Below, piece by piece: positions 1,306-8,843 of a DNA stretch of 21,111 nt. The stretch is taken from positions 1 through 21,111 of IMG/VR virus record IMGVR_UViG_3300011113_000145. One strand, written 5' to 3'. The DNA comes from a virus. A model generated the notes under the pieces. That model had not been told where the DNA came from. It made no database searches and saw only the letters and a list, made by a program, of their open reading frames with translations. The translations under genes and the position numbers were made by a program. Positions within the stretch are counted from its first letter, which is position 1. Every line of letters starts with the position of its first letter.

Positions 1306-1706
1306 CAATGCCAACCTTTCTTTTTGAAGTGAGCCCAAGCTTGACAGGGAGTATCGTATCTATGATAGATATACTCAAGCCCCCTGTCAATCTGCTTGGT
1401 TGGGGGTGTTGCTGGGTCTAGCCCTAGTATCTGTGGGATACCGCCAGCATTCTTGCCCATAACTTTTATTTTATTGTATGCGCTGGGCTTCCATGCTGAT
1501 TCCTTACCCCACAATTTACTAAGGCAGGACATCTGTTTATCGCGCCACTCGGATAGCCTGTTGTAGGCGTAGCCTTTGCTATCCTCTACTGTCCAAGTAT
1601 CCTTCTTAGAATACTTGTGCGGTGTGGCTAGTGGCTCTACTATAACGATAGTAAAGATGATTGTAAATACTAATGCTCCTATGTAGTTAGTGATATGCCT
1701 TGCCAT
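1305..1706 (-). CDS. Membrane-anchored transglycosylase/lysozyme-like protein
   Basis: The 133-aa product has an N-terminal hydrophobic segment (about residues 8-24, ending VIVEPLATP), a signal anchor or signal peptide. A lysozyme-like domain follows: LWGKESAWKP places the predicted catalytic Glu at residue 69, then GGIPQILG, QIDRGLEYIYHRY and CQAWAHFKKKGWH. This motif series matches the small transglycosylase-like (SLT/aggregation-promoting-factor-like) domains of actinobacterial cell-wall proteins, so it should cleave host peptidoglycan glycan strands. It may be the endolysin, or an entry or superinfection protein. The start at 1706 has a strong SD (AAAAGGAG 7 nt upstream), although it overlaps the end of the whiB-like gene by 28 nt. 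No holin is recognisable beside it; the membrane segment could make it a self-exported (SAR-type) enzyme, which is inference. Confidence 0.8.
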   Translation of the reverse strand: MARHITNYIGALVFTIIFTIVIVEPLATPHKYSKKDTWTVEDSKGYAYNRLSEWRDKQMSCLSKLWGKESAWKPSAYNKIKVMGKNAGGIPQILGLDPATPPTKQIDRGLEYIYHRYDTPCQAWAHFKKKGWH

Positions 1707-2002
1707 ACTCTTACTCCTTTTGCGAAGGTGATAGCATCGCTTCGGATGGTTCGGTTAGTAGGTATGCCAGCCATGAGTATTCTCTCACCTGCTAGCATGC
1801 CTCCCCATATTCCGTGCTCTATGTTCTCAGGCTTCATGCCTTCGGCTAAACACTCTGCTTTGATGGGGCAATCTTGGCAGATACCAATAGCAAGCATAGC
1901 ACTATCGGCAAGTCTTTTACGCTTAGCCATAGTGGGTCTGCCCTTAGGTTGTTCAGGGAACCACATGTCTGGGTTCGGGTGGGTAGAGCATAAGCCCTTC
2001 AT
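1679..2002 (-). CDS. whiB-like: WhiB-family iron-sulfur transcriptional regulator
   Basis: The 107-aa protein has the complete Wbl signature: Cys5, Cys42, Cys45 and Cys51 (C...CxxCxxxxxC) to hold a [4Fe-4S] cluster, then HGIWGGM at 63-69, the family's sigma-interacting turn, and GERI with a short basic C-terminal part (TNRTIRS). Wbl proteins are essentially restricted to actinobacteria and their phages and act by binding the housekeeping sigma factor region 4. Phage copies such as that of mycobacteriophage TM4 can down-regulate host wbl genes. The start at 2002 is preceded by GAGGAG, which lies in the last codons of the upstream 46-aa gene. This is the best evidence for the host phylum. Confidence 0.92.
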   Translation of the reverse strand: MKGLCSTHPNPDMWFPEQPKGRPTMAKRKRLADSAMLAIGICQDCPIKAECLAEGMKPENIEHGIWGGMLAGERILMAGIPTNRTIRSDAITFAKGVRVWQGISLTT

Positions 2003-2642: not shown

Positions 2643-3554
2643 TTAGTAAGGTAGTGCTTGTTGTTCTTTATTATACACTCTCACCCATTGATTGTCAAAG
2701 TCAAACTCTCTTGACTTTGGCTTGGCGGAGTAGGGTGTGTAGCACATACAATCATTGTGATGTGCGCCACATGACACGCATGCCTCGCAGTATTGGCAAT
2801 AATCTGCGGACAGTTCTATGTCAATCAGGGCTTCACACATAGGACACTCATCTATGATGGCATAGCTATCTAACTGCGCTTGTAGTTCTGCGTAGTAGGC
2901 TTGCTCATCAGCAAAGTCTGCCTCTGCGAAAGCACCCGTATCAGCGATAGGTTTAGGTGCTGGGTTGTAATAAGAGTATTGCGTGGCTACTGCCCGTTTA
3001 TAACTCGAATTACTCCACCATACACCATTGTCGTCCCAAGTTCCAAGTCTTTCATTGATTAGATAGAGTTGGTATTGGGCTTGTGGATTGGTGGTGAGAA
3101 CGGCAATCTTGCTACCGCTTGCCCACCCCTCAATCATACGATAGATATTCTCGTCCTCTAAGGCGAGAACACCACCGAGTTTAGGTAGCGTATCCTCAGC
3201 AAAGACACGCGTATCGCTACGCTTATCGTCCTTGCTGATGAAGGTATCTAGCACACCATTGTGCGCTAGAAATGTATTGGTATCATCACCCACTTGATAT
3301 GGGTGGCAGTTGTCCTCGTTCTTTACACCATGCGTAGCGTATCTGGCATGCCATATAGCATAGCCACTAGGATACTGCTCGCGTAGTTCTAAGAACTTAG
3401 ACACCGACTTCTTGGCACTCATTGTGCGATAGCGGATAACCTTGCCATCAGCTACGATAGCAAAGCCAAAGCCATGTGGATTAGCGCATGTTCCCTCGGT
3501 AAGTTCCTCACGCTTTGGTATAGCGTTGGGCTTACATACTACTAATAGACACAT
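2643..3554 (-). CDS. Class II glutamine amidotransferase (Ntn hydrolase)
   Basis: The 303-aa protein starts MCLLVV, placing Cys2 as the N-terminal nucleophile after Met removal. Class II glutamine amidotransferase motifs follow: ANPHGFGFA (25-32), WHARYATHG (68-76, with the Arg that binds the glutamine carboxylate) and FLAHNGVL (95-102, the Asn-Gly oxyanion loop). The Ntn domain covers about residues 1-175. The C-terminal ~60 residues hold eight or more cysteines (CPMCE, CQYCEACVSCG, CMC), suggesting a zinc-binding tail. The expected activity is glutamine to glutamate plus ammonia. Its gene starts 10 nt after the amidoligase stop (TAGGGGGTGTTAT-ATG; the stop is part of the SD), so the pair is co-translated. 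It probably supplies ammonia to, or edits the product of, the amidoligase (inference). Confidence 0.88.
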   Translation of the reverse strand: MCLLVVCKPNAIPKREELTEGTCANPHGFGFAIVADGKVIRYRTMSAKKSVSKFLELREQYPSGYAIWHARYATHGVKNEDNCHPYQVGDDTNTFLAHNGVLDTFISKDDKRSDTRVFAEDTLPKLGGVLALEDENIYRMIEGWASGSKIAVLTTNPQAQYQLYLINERLGTWDDNGVWWSNSSYKRAVATQYSYYNPAPKPIADTGAFAEADFADEQAYYAELQAQLDSYAIIDECPMCEALIDIELSADYCQYCEACVSCGAHHNDCMCYTPYSAKPKSREFDFDNQWVRVYNKEQQALPY

Positions 3555-3564
3555 ATAACACCCC

Positions 3565-4788
3565 CTAGGCGTTGATTGTTAGCATTGGAGTTGATAAGGA
3601 TACACTAGGCACTTTGGACATGCGTAGGTATAGGTTAGGGTAAAGTCCATTGTTAGTGGCTACCCAATCGGCGAACCACTCCCACTTGAGCATGCCCAAC
3701 TTTACATCAGACACACTCATGTTGCGAGTATATTCTACCGAAGCGTGGCACAATTCTAGGGCGGTCATTATGCCCTCGCGCTTCATATTGCCACGAAAGA
3801 AGCGCAACTCTAGTGTGTAGTCATTGTTAGTATTGACCGCGCTATATCGCTCGGTCATACCACCACCATGAACTTTATCTCGCAAGTTGAATTGTGGGAT
3901 ACCCCACTCATCAGGCTTATAGACATCATCAAAGCGAGCAAAGCGCGAGTTCTTGCGCCCAGCTAACTTCATCATCTCCTTAGGATTGCGATAGATTAGA
4001 GATAAGAATCGGTGCGTGTGAGCGCCCGACTTGAAAGCACTACGCGACACATGGACATGAAGCCCACAACTTGTAGTGTCCCAACTTCTAGCGCCCTTAT
4101 TGCGACATGCCTCTATGTAATTCCATAGGTCGGTGGCTTGCTCATACGCGTGTAGAGTATGTGGGTGTGATACTAACTCATAACCCCAACCCTCAATAGA
4201 ACCATCTTGCTTGAGATAGCAGATATCTGCTTTCTCTAGTTCTAGCACATCAGATACGGCGGTTCTATAATCACTTCTATCTGGGTTATCACCGAAAGAC
4301 ATCTCAAGTTCAAAGCCCATGTAGAGATTATTATCGTTGCCACCATGGAATACAGGATTAGGCTTGTATGAATACTGATGGACTACGCCCTCATTGTTCT
4401 GATTACATGAGCATGTATCATGCTCAGGATAGTATTCATCACACTCATCACAATAGGTGGCGTTATCGCCTACGCAATCCTCGCACCAATACTCACTGCC
4501 TACTCTTGTGCCACCATCTCTATCGGAGTTGGCAGTATAGTCGCAACGATTACAAGTGAAAGAGTTATTCTCCCAACAGTATTCGCACCAATGCTGACTA
4601 CCTACACTATACCAATCATCATTGATGGTGTATATCTGCTCGCAGTATTCGCATACTTGGATACAATCCGAGCATACTACTGTGCTATCGTTGGTAGTGA
4701 AGGAATCCTCTGGATTCAACTCATTACCACACCCCTCACAACTGATAGGTGGATTATCATCTAGCGTTATCTCATTATTATCTGGCAT
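3565..4788 (-). CDS. Zinc-ribbon / glutamine-synthetase-fold amidoligase
   Basis: The 407-aa protein has two parts. Residues ~17-128 contain eight cysteine pairs (seven CxxC plus CSC), a tandem zinc-ribbon array. Residues ~155-360 match the GS-like amidoligase family (Amidoligase_2): MGFELEM (157-163), DGSIEGWGYELVSHP (195-209), CGLHVHVS (241-248), ERYSAVN (313-319) and TLELRFFRGN (325-334). The Glu/His/Arg residues correspond to the metal, ATP and carboxylate-binding residues of the GS fold. The family joins a carboxylate to an amine using ATP; the substrate is unknown, and the zinc array may recognise a protein or nucleic acid. The SD AAGGGGGTG precedes ATG 4788. It lies directly upstream of a class II glutamine amidotransferase, a neighbourhood described for phage amidoligases. 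Confidence 0.87.
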   Translation of the reverse strand: MPDNNEITLDDNPPISCEGCGNELNPEDSFTTNDSTVVCSDCIQVCEYCEQIYTINDDWYSVGSQHWCEYCWENNSFTCNRCDYTANSDRDGGTRVGSEYWCEDCVGDNATYCDECDEYYPEHDTCSCNQNNEGVVHQYSYKPNPVFHGGNDNNLYMGFELEMSFGDNPDRSDYRTAVSDVLELEKADICYLKQDGSIEGWGYELVSHPHTLHAYEQATDLWNYIEACRNKGARSWDTTSCGLHVHVSRSAFKSGAHTHRFLSLIYRNPKEMMKLAGRKNSRFARFDDVYKPDEWGIPQFNLRDKVHGGGMTERYSAVNTNNDYTLELRFFRGNMKREGIMTALELCHASVEYTRNMSVSDVKLGMLKWEWFADWVATNNGLYPNLYLRMSKVPSVSLSTPMLTINA

Positions 4789-5404: not shown

Positions 5405-5590
5405 CTATTGAACTCTACTCTCTAACTCTATCTGAATCATCTCTATCTTTGCTTCATATTCCTCACGCTTGCTAGGGCTACCTTGCTTTAAGGCTTTGGC
5501 TAGTGCGTGTCTATAACCTGCTCTCATCTCTTTGAGCATTGGGGTATCTACCCCGTTTAGGTCGGTATCTATAAGGTTTATCTCTCTCAT
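5405..5590 (-). CDS. Small helical hypothetical protein, 61 aa
   Basis: The 61 residues are charged and helical (MLKEMRAGYRHALAKALKQ, then REEYEAKIEMIQIELESRV), probably a helical hairpin or short coiled coil. ATG 5590 overlaps the TGA of the upstream basic-protein gene in an ATGA arrangement, so the two are translationally coupled. No family is recognised. The 98 bp between its end and the next start (5307-5404) hold no gene that I can support. Confidence 0.68.
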   Translation of the reverse strand: MREINLIDTDLNGVDTPMLKEMRAGYRHALAKALKQGSPSKREEYEAKIEMIQIELESRVQ

Positions 5591-5877
5591 AGGTAATCGC
5601 CCCTCATCTCGCGTTCTAATCGTGCTTGTGCTTGCTTGAACGCCTCTTGGCGCTCGGCTAGTGCTATTGCTTGCTCATCTTGCTTTGATACTTGCGCCCC
5701 CACTTTCACCAATTGCTTGGCTACTCGCTTGGACTTTGGCTTGCGCTTGGCTACTCTCTTACCCGTTGGAGCGACTACGAATCGCTCGCCGTTGGGCTTG
5801 ATAATAGTGATGGGGAAAGACACTCTAGGTGTCTGACGCGCCCATGGTCGCGATACTCTCACGCGCTTGGTTGCCAT
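5587..5877 (-). CDS. Basic Lys/Arg-rich protein, possible nucleic-acid binder, 96 aa
   Basis: I place the start at ATG 5877 (MATKRVRVSRPWARQTPR), because AGAGAGGA sits 6-8 nt upstream. An in-frame ATG at 5946 would add 23 residues but has no SD and would translate through two leader hairpins. The protein is strongly basic in its middle (residues ~50-75, GKRVAKRKPKSKRVAKQ) with a helical C-terminus (EQAIALAERQEAFKQAQARLEREM). It could bind nucleic acid; that is inferred only from charge. It is the first gene of the leftward operon. Confidence 0.65.
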   Translation of the reverse strand: MATKRVRVSRPWARQTPRVSFPITIIKPNGERFVVAPTGKRVAKRKPKSKRVAKQLVKVGAQVSKQDEQAIALAERQEAFKQAQARLEREMRGDYL

Positions 5878-5900
5878 CTCTCTATCCTCTCTAGTCGGTT

Positions 5901-5949
5901 TAGGGCTTGGCTTAGCCCTAGTGGATAGATGGGGTATGACCCCCATCTA
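5901..5949 (-). promoter_or_regulatory. Tandem hairpins in the leader of the leftward operon
   Basis: Two perfect inverted repeats lie just upstream of the first leftward start: TAGGGCT-tggctt-AGCCCTA (5901-5920) and TAGATGGGG-tatgac-CCCCATCTA (5926-5949). In a leftward transcript they form adjacent 7-bp and 9-bp hairpins before the SD of the gene at 5877. They lack a following U-tract, so they look like leader structures (stability, translation control or antitermination) rather than terminators. Confidence 0.45.
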
Positions 5950-5978
5950 CCCGCGCCTATTGGGTAGAGAACTCACCG

Positions 5979-5995
5979 CGCCCCTACATGGGGCG
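5979..5995. repeat. GC-rich hairpin CGCCCC-TACAT-GGGGCG
   Basis: A perfect 6-bp stem with a 5-nt loop. Almost the same hairpin (CGCCCC-GCAT-GGGGCG) recurs at 6240-6255. The two therefore flank the GC-rich structured block and may be related copies. Confidence 0.4.
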
Positions 5996-6033
5996 GGCTT
6001 GCGCCCTACCTTCTAGGCGGTGGAATAAATGCG

Positions 6034-6288
6034 ACTAGACACACCCCGCTATCCATGCGCCCTATTCCCGCGAAAGCGGGGGAATCGTAAGCGGTATCGC
6101 TCACAGTTCTTTAGGGCACACCCTTAAAGGGTGCTGGCGGTAAATAATCTGGCGAGAACTGGAAAGAATCGCGGGGGCGGACACCCGACCCGTTGAACCA
6201 GCACTCGCGGTTCTTTCAACCGCGTTGCGGGGCAAAGAGCGCCCCGCATGGGGCGAGCGTATCACAGGGGGGCGGGGGCGTGTCTAGT
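6034..6288. other. GC-rich structured element bounded by a 14-bp inverted repeat
   Basis: The stretch is noncoding and bounded by ACTAGACACACCCC (6034-6047) and GGGGCGTGTCTAGT (6275-6288), complementary at 13 of 14 positions. Inside are a bulged hairpin with a GAAA loop (6064-6085); a palindrome CACCCTT-A-AAGGGTG (6119-6133); a 7-bp long-range pair GTGCTGG/CCAGCAC (6131-6137 with 6198-6204); a 12-bp stem (6162-6173 with 6206-6217); hairpin 6206-6224; and an 8-bp hairpin TGCGGGGC/GCCCCGCA (6226-6248) overlapping hairpin 6240-6255. Several of these exclude each other. It could be a structured noncoding RNA, an origin or packaging structure, or a small inverted-repeat element. No tRNA T-loop or cloverleaf was found. 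Confidence 0.5.
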
Positions 6289-6328
6289 TGATACCCCCTA
6301 AATGGGGGGAAAAGTTGAGCGTGTAAAT

Positions 6329-6344
6329 TGTGATGTCCATCACA
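6329..6344. promoter_or_regulatory. CRP/GlxR-type operator 1 (TGTGA-N6-TCACA)
   Basis: TGTGATGTCCATCACA matches all ten fixed positions of the CRP-family consensus TGTGA-N6-TCACA, used by Escherichia CRP and actinobacterial CRP/GlxR proteins. The outer arms extend the symmetry to TGTGATG/CATCACA, and the flanks are A/T-rich on the left (AAAT). The site is 112 bp upstream of an identical-class site at 6441. Binding by the host regulator is inferred from consensus only. Confidence 0.65.
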
Positions 6345-6358
6345 CTTTGGGCACTACG

Positions 6359-6370
6359 CCTAGAACTAGG
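6359..6370. promoter_or_regulatory. Palindrome CCTAG-AA-CTAGG
   Basis: A perfect 5+2+5 palindrome between the two CRP-like sites; the next bases (GC.../...GC) continue partial symmetry. Operator-like in form; the cognate protein is unknown. Confidence 0.35.
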
Positions 6371-6401
6371 GCGAATCGGACATAATGGGATAGATAAGAC
6401 A

Positions 6402-6416
6402 TGACCTATTAGGTCA
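6402..6416. promoter_or_regulatory. Palindrome TGACCTA-T-TAGGTCA
   Basis: A perfect 7+1+7 palindrome in the centre-right of the region between the two CRP-like sites. A one-base spacer makes an RNA hairpin unlikely, so it is best read as a dimer-binding operator, for example for a phage repressor or a GntR/TetR-type host protein (inference). Confidence 0.45.
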
Positions 6417-6440
6417 AGCCGACACGCCGACAATTCCCAA

Positions 6441-6460
6441 AGTGTGAGCCAATTCACACT
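6441..6460. promoter_or_regulatory. CRP/GlxR-type operator 2 (AGTGTGA-N6-TCACACT)
   Basis: AGTGTGAGCCAATTCACACT has perfect 7-bp arms around a 6-bp spacer and matches all ten fixed positions of TGTGA-N6-TCACA. Its left part continues a 12-bp inverted repeat with site 1 (TCACACTTTGGG at 6340-6351 against CCCAAAGTGTGA at 6436-6447), so the two sites face each other symmetrically. Its right end abuts the SOS-box-like palindrome. Confidence 0.68.
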
Positions 6461-6475
6461 AGAACAGATGTTCTA
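6460..6475. promoter_or_regulatory. SOS-box-like LexA operator (GAAC-N4-GTTC)
   Basis: TAGAACAGATGTTCTA is a perfect 7+2+7 palindrome with the core GAAC-AGAT-GTTC (6462-6473). This is the Gram-positive/actinobacterial LexA box core (GAAC-N4-GTTC), and the inner bases fit the RNRY spacer preference. The flanks are A/T rather than the usual C/G. It abuts CRP-like site 2, so LexA and a CRP-family protein could compete or cooperate here. Confidence 0.55.
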
Positions 6476-6520
6476 TGACTTACGCCACATGGGGCTAATG
6501 GGGTGGGGAGATAGTCGCTC

Positions 6521-6553
6521 ACTCAGGAAACACTCAGCCAATTCTCAGATTTA
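6521..6553 (+). repeat. Iteron cluster 1: three 11-bp direct repeats
   Basis: ACTCAGGAAAC, ACTCAGCCAAT and TCTCAGATTTA follow one another with no gap, so CTCAG recurs at 6522, 6533 and 6544, exactly 11 bp apart. That is about one helical turn, which puts all units on the same DNA face. Such arrays are typical of replication-initiator iterons or of binding sites for OmpR/PhoB-family response regulators. Confidence 0.65.
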
Positions 6554-6576
6554 TTTATTACAAAATGTTATAGATA

Positions 6577-6604
6577 CCCCTACCCCCTACCTACCCCACC
6601 CCCC
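6577..6604 (-). other. G-quadruplex motif on the minus strand
   Basis: The plus strand has C-runs CCCC (6577-6580), CCCCC (6583-6587), CCCC (6594-6597) and CCCCCC (6599-6604). On the minus strand these give four G-runs of at least four with loops of 1, 6 and 2 nt, satisfying the canonical G3+N1-7 motif. It lies exactly between the two iteron clusters. Confidence 0.5.
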
Positions 6605-6612
6605 TACACCAT

Positions 6613-6656
6613 ACTCAGCCAGCACTCAGGCAACTCTCAGGATACTCTCAGGAATA
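6613..6656 (+). repeat. Iteron cluster 2: four 11-bp direct repeats
   Basis: ACTCAGCCAGC, ACTCAGGCAAC, TCTCAGGATAC and TCTCAGGAATA are contiguous, with CTCAG at 6614, 6625, 6636 and 6647, again an exact 11-bp period and the same orientation as cluster 1. The consensus is WCTCAGSNAWN. The array runs directly into AT-rich DNA (AATATATTTT), as expected where an initiator array abuts an unwinding element. Confidence 0.68.
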
Positions 6657-6785
6657 TATTTTGAGGGGGTATTGTATAAATTACGCGTCAGTATAATATT
6701 ATGTCTCACCCAATAATTTTCTGTTATAAGCCCCCCAATATATATACAAATCGGACATATTACCCCCTAAAATAAAATATATTTA

Positions 6786-6820
6786 GGAAACCTGTTCGGT
6801 TTCCCGATTTGAACAGGTTT
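6786..6820 (+). terminator. Alternative hairpins with terminator-like 3' end
   Basis: AAACCTGTTC (6788-6797) pairs perfectly with GAACAGGTTT (6811-6820), a 10-bp stem followed by a short T-run (6818-6821, then CT). A competing 7-bp hairpin, GGAAACC-tgttc-GGTTTCC (6786-6804), uses the same left arm. Only one can form, so this could be an attenuator-like switch or a weak terminator for a rightward leader transcript. Confidence 0.35.
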
Positions 6821-6867
6821 TCTATATATGTAATAATAAATATTTATTACATAGGAGCTTGCTCCGC

Positions 6868-6907
6868 TTGAACTACGCAAGCTCTTATATAATATAATAT
6901 ATATAAT
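6868..6907 (+). promoter_or_regulatory. Candidate promoter for the rightward virion operon
   Basis: TTGAAC (6868-6873) resembles a -35 box, and TATAAT occurs at 6893-6898 (19-bp spacer) and again at 6902-6907, 68-83 bp before the terminase start. Because the surroundings are almost pure A/T, TATAAT matches are partly expected by chance; a phage sigma-like factor may use other sequences. Confidence 0.32.
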
Positions 6908-6926
6908 ATATATATGGGGAAGCTAT

Positions 6927-6944
6927 GCCCGTTTTATGACGGGC
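6927..6944 (+). promoter_or_regulatory. Leader hairpin upstream of terminase gene
   Basis: GCCCGT-TTTATG-ACGGGC forms a perfect 6-bp GC-rich stem followed by GTTATTT, 31 bp before the terminase start. It could protect the 5' end of the mRNA or act as a leaky terminator separating leader transcripts from the virion operon. Confidence 0.35.
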
Positions 6945-6974
6945 GTTATTTCTGTGATTTAACGGGGGACACTG

Positions 6975-8843
6975 ATGGGTAGAAAGCCTGGCAAGGTAGA
7001 TATACCGATGCATGAGGCTAAGGAGAAAGTTCTCCTGATGCTAGCCCAAGGTAGCACTATAGCCCAGGCAATGGGCTCAGTCAACCGCAATGAGGTAACC
7101 TTTAGGCAGTGGTCCATGAAGGATACTGACTTCAAAGACAGGGCCGACAAGGCCCGCCTCGAAGGCAAAGGTATCAAGGCTGACTTTAAGAATCTAAAGG
7201 ATATCAGCTTTGAGGACTTCTCCCAGCAGTTTCTAGACACCAGCCTCTTTGACCATCATAAGGACTGGATTGACTTGATTGAGGGGCGCGAGCCCCGCTA
7301 TCTTCACCCTGCGATGACATACGAGCCAGGGGCCTCTAACCGAGTCCTGATTAACGTACCCCCTGAACACGCTAAGTCCACCGTGGTGACGATTAACTAT
7401 GTTACCTACCGACTAGCTGTAGACCCGAATGTTAGAATCATTATCGTCTCTAAGACTCAGGGCATGGCCCGCAAGTTTCTCTCGGCGATTAAGACAAGAC
7501 TCTCACACCCGAATTGGATAAAGCTACAGACAGCCTTCGGTCCGCAGGGCGGATATAAGGCTGATAGCCAAACCTGGAGTGCTGATATGATTTACCTTGG
7601 CACTGGTAGGGACTCTGGCGAGAAGGACCCTACAGTACAAGCCCTTGGTTTTGGTAGTCAAATTTACGGTGCTCGTGCCGACTTGATTATCCTCGACGAT
7701 GTTGTGATGAACTCCAATTCCCACGAATGGGAGAAGCAAATTGAATGGCTTCAAAAAGAAGTCATCACACGCTTAGGACGACACGGGAAACTACTTATCG
7801 TAGGGACCCGTGTTGCTCCAGTAGATTTATATAAAATGATTCGGGACGGTCAACAATGGACAGGTGGTAAATCTCCCTTTACCTACTTTGCCCAGCCAGC
7901 CGTACTGGAGTTTGATGAAAACCCGAAGAACTGGAAAACGCTTTGGCCATGGACGGATAGGGCTGAAGGCGATAAAGATGAGGCTAATGCCGAAGGACTT
8001 TACCCTAAGTGGGACGGTCCTTCACTTTTTACTCGGCGTAGTGAAGTGGCACCTTCCATATGGGCGATGGTCTACCAGCAAGAGGACGTCACCGAAGATT
8101 CAATCTTTTCACCCACAGCAATTGCAGGATGCGTTAATGGTATGCGAAAGCGTGGGCCACTCAAACCAGGAGTCCCAGGACACCCAAAGCACTTAGAGTC
8201 TGCTTATACGGTTATAGGCCTAGACCCAGCGATGACTGGTAATACTGCTGCGGTAGCTATTACTTACAACCGCAGTGATAGTATGATTTATGTTTTAGAT
8301 GCTGTCAATATGACAGAGCCAACCCCTGCGAAGATTCGTGCCCTTATCGAAGATTGGGTACAACGCTATAAGCCACAGGAATTACGAATTGAAATCAACG
8401 CACACCAGAAAGCATACGCACTCGATGATGAACTGCGTAACTGGCTTTCGATGTACGGCTGCCAACTCAACTCTCACTTCACTGGTAAGAACAAGTGGGA
8501 CACTTCTTTTGGTGTGGCTTCTATGGCGAGTTTATTTGGCAGTATTAGAGATGGACGATTTCAAGATAACAACTCGATAGAGCTACCTTCTAACGAAGGA
8601 AGCGAAGGCCTTAAGGCTTTAGTACAACAGTTGATTACTTGGAAGCCTGAGACTAGAAACCCTACAGACTGTGTAATGGCTCTCTGGTTTGCAGTCATTC
8701 GCGTCCGCGAGTTAATGCAACAACACTCACAGTCAGCAAGATGGATGCAAAACCGTTGGGCAACAAGAGCTCAAACGGAGAGAAGATTCTCAATTAACTT
8801 AGATGAAGCTGTTGCAGAGCAATGGCAACAGACATACGGTTAG
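6975..8843 (+). CDS. terL: Terminase large subunit
   Basis: The 622-aa product is the phage DNA-packaging motor. An N-terminal HTH-like region (about 15-65) precedes the ATPase domain. That domain has a Walker A variant VPPEHAKST (128-136), the Walker B DLIILDD (236-242, acidic pair D241/D242) and the coupling motif GTR (277-279). The RNase H-like nuclease follows, with Asp417 in GLDPAMTGN and Glu473 in RIEIN. Length and motif order are usual for TerL of tailed phages. GGGGGA lies about 6 nt before ATG 6975. It is the first gene of the rightward virion block; no separate small terminase is visible, and the N-terminal HTH may partly compensate or the small subunit may be encoded elsewhere. Confidence 0.93.
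   Translation: MGRKPGKVDIPMHEAKEKVLLMLAQGSTIAQAMGSVNRNEVTFRQWSMKDTDFKDRADKARLEGKGIKADFKNLKDISFEDFSQQFLDTSLFDHHKDWIDLIEGREPRYLHPAMTYEPGASNRVLINVPPEHAKSTVVTINYVTYRLAVDPNVRIIIVSKTQGMARKFLSAIKTRLSHPNWIKLQTAFGPQGGYKADSQTWSADMIYLGTGRDSGEKDPTVQALGFGSQIYGARADLIILDDVVMNSNSHEWEKQIEWLQKEVITRLGRHGKLLIVGTRVAPVDLYKMIRDGQQWTGGKSPFTYFAQPAVLEFDENPKNWKTLWPWTDRAEGDKDEANAEGLYPKWDGPSLFTRRSEVAPSIWAMVYQQEDVTEDSIFSPTAIAGCVNGMRKRGPLKPGVPGHPKHLESAYTVIGLDPAMTGNTAAVAITYNRSDSMIYVLDAVNMTEPTPAKIRALIEDWVQRYKPQELRIEINAHQKAYALDDELRNWLSMYGCQLNSHFTGKNKWDTSFGVASMASLFGSIRDGRFQDNNSIELPSNEGSEGLKALVQQLITWKPETRNPTDCVMALWFAVIRVRELMQQHSQSARWMQNRWATRAQTERRFSINLDEAVAEQWQQTYG

Follow-up and report, generated by a model that had tools for sequence, protein, structure and literature searches.

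Why should a phage carry, between its two divergent gene blocks, two perfect copies of an operator of the CRP/GlxR type, and whose regulator would read them? The window, by which we mean the whole stretch of DNA that was analysed, is the 21,111-base IMG/VR record IMGVR_UViG_3300011113_000145. An intergenic control region of about 1 kb (5947-6974), in which no plausible ORF was seen, separates a leftward block from a rightward block. The leftward block begins at the ATG at 5946 with a basic protein of 119 amino acids (5587-5946, minus strand; an alternative ATG lies inside), which has no match in Pfam or PHROG, and further includes genes for an amidoligase-like protein (3565-4788, minus strand; Pfam PF12224, 6e-8), a class II glutamine amidotransferase-like protein (2643-3554, minus strand; Pfam PF13522, 1.5e-6) and a WhiB-like protein (1679-2002, minus strand; Pfam PF02467, 2e-10, and PHROG WhiB families), WhiB being an actinophage marker. 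The rightward block starts at the ATG at 6975 with the terminase large subunit gene (6975-8843, plus strand; phrog_38, 2.4e-66, and Pfam PF17289). No tRNA was found in the intergenic region, and no Rfam family reached its gathering score there; a tRNA, an Rfam family or another structured RNA was thus rejected as an explanation of the region, with nothing at threshold.

Both operators that the first-pass annotation had placed between the divergent blocks are exact, and both lie inside the intergenic region, with the leftward genes on one side and the rightward terminase on the other. Predicted operator 1, TGTGA-TGTCCA-TCACA (TGTGATGTCCATCACA), occupies 6329-6344, and predicted operator 2, TGTGA-GCCAAT-TCACA (TGTGAGCCAATTCACA), occupies 6443-6458, where its symmetry extends to perfect 7-bp arms, AGTGTGA/TCACACT, at 6441-6460, again as annotated. 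The annotation had also called two such sites within 130 bp very unlikely to be random, and the shuffles agree: dinucleotide-shuffled versions of the whole window contained on average 0.04 matches to TGTGA-N6-TCACA and never the two that are observed. The 21 kb contain no further exact copy, and copies with one or two mismatches occur at chance level. The actinobacterial GlxR consensus is TGTGANNTANNTCACA (PMC4254451), and the spacers of CRP boxes across the phage family lean towards it, with T as the third spacer base in 65% of 27 dereplicated sites. The window's own spacers, TGTCCA and GCCAAT, are without the central TA of that consensus.

The cluster holds three elements that the first-pass annotation had omitted. 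The first is a predicted LexA/SOS-type operator, TAGAACA-GA-TGTTCTA (TAGAACAGATGTTCTA, 6460-6475), a perfect palindrome with the core GAACAGATGTTC at 6462-6473, which abuts CRP operator 2 and starts where the 7-base arm of that box stops. The second is a degenerate CRP-like box with two mismatches (TATGA-CTTACG-CCACA, 6474-6489), which overlaps the LexA box at its right edge; a relative, L208, has at the same place a CRP-like box with one mismatch, TATGACTTACATCACA. The third is a 12-bp inverted extension that joins the two CRP boxes, with one arm, TCACACTTTGGG, at 6340-6351 and the other, CCCAAAGTGTGA, at 6436-6447. In five relatives (L004, L005, L009, L030 and L033), a CRP box with one mismatch likewise abuts a LexA box, and a consensus promoter adjoins the pair. 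Across the phage family, the LexA-type motif reads T(C/A)GAACA-NN-TGTTC(G/T)A, with the outer T in 89% and C or A beside it; in the window, the second letter of each arm is A rather than C. The LexA consensus measured in Streptomyces venezuelae is tCGAAC-N4-GNNCGa (PMC9380542), and both the family motif and the window's own box agree with it in the GAAC-N4-GTTC palindrome. To the right of CRP box 2 in the close relatives L002 and L003/L121, the LexA box is replaced by two copies of another palindrome, GAGAATCGTTCTC.

To which phages does the window belong, and which host do they infect? Its terminase shares 78% identity with the terminases of OX376640 and OX376641, the phages LanE43AprE7 (E7) and LanE43AprF5 (F5), which were isolated on 'Ca. 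Planktophila' LanE-43, of the order 'Ca. Nanopelagicales', and lyse this host (PMC10202952). On the strength of this terminase identity, the window phage very probably infects Actinobacteria of 'Ca. Nanopelagicales'; a search for the phage in genome assemblies, made to identify the host, gave no match. These freshwater bacteria are among the most abundant of lakes. Relatives of about 39-40 kb have genes of the DnaB-type helicase, primase and exonuclease families. A tyrosine integrase (PF00589) was found in 0 of 32 records and a serine recombinase (PF00239) in 0 of 27, and no repressor family appears in the Pfam listings of non-structural ORFs from G001 and E7. A temperate lysis-lysogeny switch was rejected on these grounds, integrase, serine recombinase and repressor all being absent from the records tested. 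With no integrases found and with lysis by E7 and F5, the window phage family is most likely virulent.

If the operators matter to these phages, their arms should outlast their surroundings, and 80 terminase-related loci were gathered for comparison. In most cases, the exact or one-mismatch CRP boxes of the relatives precede the terminase start by 470 to 720 bases, and their spacers differ. An unbiased palindrome scan upstream of the terminase in 49 relatives, covering all 1024 five-base arms at each of the 13 spacings from 0 to 12, put GAACA-N2-TGTTC at the top, with 24 loci, followed by TGTGA-N6-TCACA with 20; when the letters of TGTGA were arranged in 29 other orders with the spacing unchanged, the score was 0 for 27 of them and 1 and 5 for the other two. 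After dereplication, an exact CRP box stands upstream of the terminase in 16 of 43 loci (shuffle mean 0.01) and an exact LexA-type box in 19 (shuffle mean 0.03), so that 28 loci have one or the other and 15 have neither, while no exact copy of either box occurs in 520 kb of sequence that follows the terminase starts. The closest relatives differ from the window at 10% of CRP-arm and 11% of LexA-arm positions, versus 40% of CRP spacer positions and 33% of positions elsewhere; conserved arms and drifting spacers, as anticipated in the first-pass annotation, are therefore what the family displays. At operator 1, the arms are kept and the spacer is changed in seven relatives (L002, L127, L160, L166, L121, L006 and L110); at operator 2, six keep the arms (L127, L146, L160, L166, L002 and L121), three of them with a changed spacer (L127, L160 and L166). 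A chance origin of the boxes was rejected on the shuffles, the arm permutations and the relatives together. Neither box is indispensable, since operator 1 is missing from L001/L135 despite an essentially identical terminase, and since E7 and F5, the phages cultured on 'Ca. Planktophila', each contain two exact CRP boxes but no exact LexA box. The second exact CRP box of E7 (locus L084, 1435-1450) precedes by 77 bases the leftward gene that opens a block in which an ArdA anti-restriction protein is also encoded.

The same comparison bears on whether the palindromes are operators at all. They could instead form a DNA or RNA structure such as an origin, a packaging site or a hairpin built from TCACACTTTGGG and CCCAAAGTGTGA, a thought encouraged by the way in which the 12-bp inverted repeat joins the boxes (6340-6351 / 6436-6447) and by the position next to the terminase, a frequent place of cos and pac sites. 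However, the inverted extension is lost in L003, L006, L009 and L030, where the 5-bp arms are kept, the fixed six-base spacing and the central-base bias match GlxR, and LexA boxes accompany CRP boxes in unrelated phages as well. We therefore hold a purely structural role to be highly implausible and treat the boxes as operators. A hairpin does exist outside the operator cluster, in the terminase leader (6788-6820, plus strand), with arms AAACCTGTTC...GAACAGGTTT / CTGTTCGGTTT...GAACAGGTT. Of 43 dereplicated relatives, 31 keep the arm GAACAGGTT, which usually falls between -139 and -186. Terminator-like matches lie near the hairpin, which is possibly a terminator or a leader structure.

Who, then, binds the operators? 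A cAMP- or cNMP-binding domain (PF00027) was found in 0 of 18 family records by a search that does match the positive control, the actinobacterium C. glutamicum, and an S24/LexA peptidase (PF00717) in 0 of 13 records. The Crp-type HTH (PF13545) is likewise absent from the window family, and three unrelated records with CRP-LexA pairs match it weakly, below the cut-off. A phage-encoded CRP or LexA was rejected because none of these three domains was found in the family records tested. For the same reason, host regulators are the simplest binders, and we infer that the proteins in question are those of the host: CRP and LexA of the host are likely to bind the operators predicted here. CRP and LexA are taken to be present in 'Ca. 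Planktophila' from what is generally known of Actinobacteria; the literature on either protein in 'Ca. Planktophila' yielded nothing useful. The first-pass annotation had ascribed the sites to a CRP/GlxR-type host regulator, and this part of its reading stands, with CRP/GlxR-type operators conserved and no phage-borne binder domain found in the family records tested. It was incomplete in that it missed the LexA input, and its 'direct metabolic-sensing switch' is a hypothesis.

The operators might nevertheless serve regulators of the phage's own, with CRP-like and LexA-like specificity, that together form a phage-internal switch. Phage repressors typically use palindromic operators in divergent control regions, no domain is known for many phage ORFs, and the weak, sub-cut-off Crp-type HTH matches come from three unrelated records that bear the composite. 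On the other hand, cNMP, Crp HTH and S24 domains were not found in the window family records tested, the Pfam listings of G001 and E7 show no repressor-type domain in non-structural ORFs, and both motifs are known host consensus motifs that recur in phages without nucleotide similarity. Such an internal switch thus seems quite improbable, and we continue with host CRP and host LexA as the likely binders.

How far does the pairing reach? A scan of all viral contigs for a CRP box followed within 0-30 bases by a LexA box returned 111 stretches, versus 1 with the CRP arms reversed and 4 with the LexA arms reversed. When 80 of the 111 were compared by nucleotide similarity, 54 were linked to the window family and the remaining 26 fell into 18 unlinked groups; some of the 54 are linked only via shared genes, since several terminases are about 25% identical. 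WhiB is encoded in 14 of 30 CRP-LexA records tested. A claim of helical phasing, suggested by apparently clustered gap lengths between the CRP and LexA boxes, was dropped, as these loci cannot be counted as independent. A pair of exact CRP boxes separated by 85-115 bases, for example in L216-L287, occurs in at least 119 viral stretches versus 3 for reversed arms, and CRP-type operators may on this count be widespread in phages.

What the boxes would do depends on the promoters around them. Near-consensus sigma-70 promoters are clear in nine relatives (L004, L005, L009, L011, L012, L013, L030, L031 and L033); no consensus sigma-70 promoter was recognised beside the boxes of the window, and such promoters are rare beside CRP-LexA composites in other phages. 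The promoter geometry cannot be generalised because of this rarity, and for the window it could be transferred only by analogy. In L009, L011, L030 and L033, a leftward promoter has a CRP box at about +16; for L009 and L011, this box is at the same time about -64 relative to the leftward promoter that follows, and L013, L030 and L033 show comparable -64 positions. Upstream of the first leftward promoter in the relatives come the LexA box, at -67.5, and a second CRP box, at -53.5. The rightward promoters of L004, L005, L009, L011 and L012 also have the LexA box at -67.5, with the CRP box at -53.5 in L004 and L005. In E. coli, -53.5 is not known as a standard activating position of CRP.

The geometry in these relatives fits a proposed gating mechanism. 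On entry, host LexA and CRP-cAMP would occupy the cluster of about 160 bp between the leftward and rightward blocks. LexA would repress the adjoining promoter until DNA damage leads to cleavage of the host's LexA, and CRP would activate or block neighbouring promoters depending on cAMP. A single CRP dimer could in this way block the first promoter and activate the next, with LexA holding the upstream promoter until the SOS response, and lytic development would be set by carbon and energy status together with DNA damage. That the region is a composite of host CRP and host LexA sites gating divergent early transcription in an apparently virulent actinophage is, in our view, probable.

The phage could also be using its host in a simpler manner. 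CRP may act as a strong, near-constant activator of the early promoters, with the LexA box only lowering initial expression and with no sensing or timing involved. The boxes at about -64 from near-consensus leftward promoters in the relatives are in a class I-like position, E7 and F5 retain CRP boxes without an exact LexA box, and GlxR is mostly an activator (PMC4254451), all of which would fit. But the LexA box is as common in the family as the CRP box (19 vs 16 of 43 loci), it accompanies the CRP box far more often than chance allows (111 vs 1 and 4 stretches), and the CRP box that could activate from -64 is also placed so as to block another promoter, at about +16. We regard simple hijacking as unlikely overall. 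Whether the composite of host CRP and LexA sites truly gates transcription by host state, rather than simply using host activators, is a question on which we are evenly divided. The CRP-LexA pairing recurs in many other phages without integrase genes, and the timing of infection may therefore follow the state of the cell. That unrelated virulent actinophage lineages share a two-input code, in which host CRP (cAMP) and host LexA (DNA damage) gate lytic transcription, is a tentative proposal that we hold slightly more doubtful than not.

The co-option of host regulators by phages is already known for CtrA, Spo0A and LexA, and the CRP-LexA combination would be a variant of it. Closest in outline are the CtrA sites in phages of Alphaproteobacteria, which stand for the concept of 'lytic deferment' (PMC9437464): there, too, conserved intergenic sites for a global regulator of the host are found in unrelated phages of one host group, several of which are considered virulent. 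However, those sites serve a single cell-cycle regulator, CtrA, whose binding has been demonstrated, whereas here predicted CRP and LexA sites occur together, in actinophages. An experimentally established precedent, summarised in the same source, is the Bacillus phage phi29 (PMC9437464), which is virulent and has several promoter-associated sites for a master regulator of its host, Spo0A, that suspends the lytic cycle; unlike the regulators considered here, Spo0A is a sporulation regulator, and the host belongs to a different phylum. The Bacillus thuringiensis phage GIL01 shares SOS boxes in its control region, which are bound by host LexA, but it is temperate, relies on phage co-factors and has no CRP component, whereas no integrases were found in the phages studied here (PMC4551915, PMC6182141). 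In coliphage T1 (PMC6737242), a regulatory promoter of the phage is under the control of the host's cAMP-CRP, which ties lytic development to the metabolic state. T1 is an enterobacterial phage capable of lysogeny in which CRP acts as a repressor of pir, whereas here conserved paired CRP boxes stand next to a LexA box. E7 and F5 belong to the same phage family as the window and share with it a WhiB gene and exact CRP boxes in the control region, but differ in having no exact LexA box; the available part of their publication text reports no operators (PMC10202952). In the literature searched, we found no report of combined CRP and LexA operators, or of either in these actinophages, and no work on 'Ca. 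Nanopelagicales' phages responding to host physiology.

The CRP-LexA pair in phages without integrases suggests that the outcome of infection can depend on carbon status and on DNA damage, for instance by sunlight, without lysogeny. If this is true, phages regarded as obligately lytic would read the energy and damage state of their host and defer or speed infection accordingly. Lytic deferment of this kind can be put to the test in culture, with 'Ca. Planktophila' LanE-43 as the host and E7 and F5 as its phages. The composite motif could also serve as a sequence signature that links uncultured phages to actinobacterial hosts without CRISPR spacers.

Some further repeated elements were seen in the control regions. 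In another phage group (L100, L104, L116, L125, L130, L136, L147, L149, L164 and L173), a third palindrome, GTTAGG-N4-CCTAAC, e.g. TTAGGTTAGCCTAACA, sits close to the CRP and LexA boxes or in the gap that separates them, with a varying N4. It resembles DtxR/IdeR iron boxes, with 3-5 mismatches of 19, and is possibly a third input in some lineages; WhiB was confirmed in the record of L149. In the window, GGGGAGATAGTC lies to the right of the operator cluster (6505-6516) and recurs as GGGG.?GATAGT in 17 of 43 relatives, E7 and F5 among them. Lastly, AATCGGACATA occurs twice in the intergenic region (6374-6385 and 6750-6760), with its core also in several relatives; E7 encodes a phage sigma factor, and the element could be a promoter element for such a factor.
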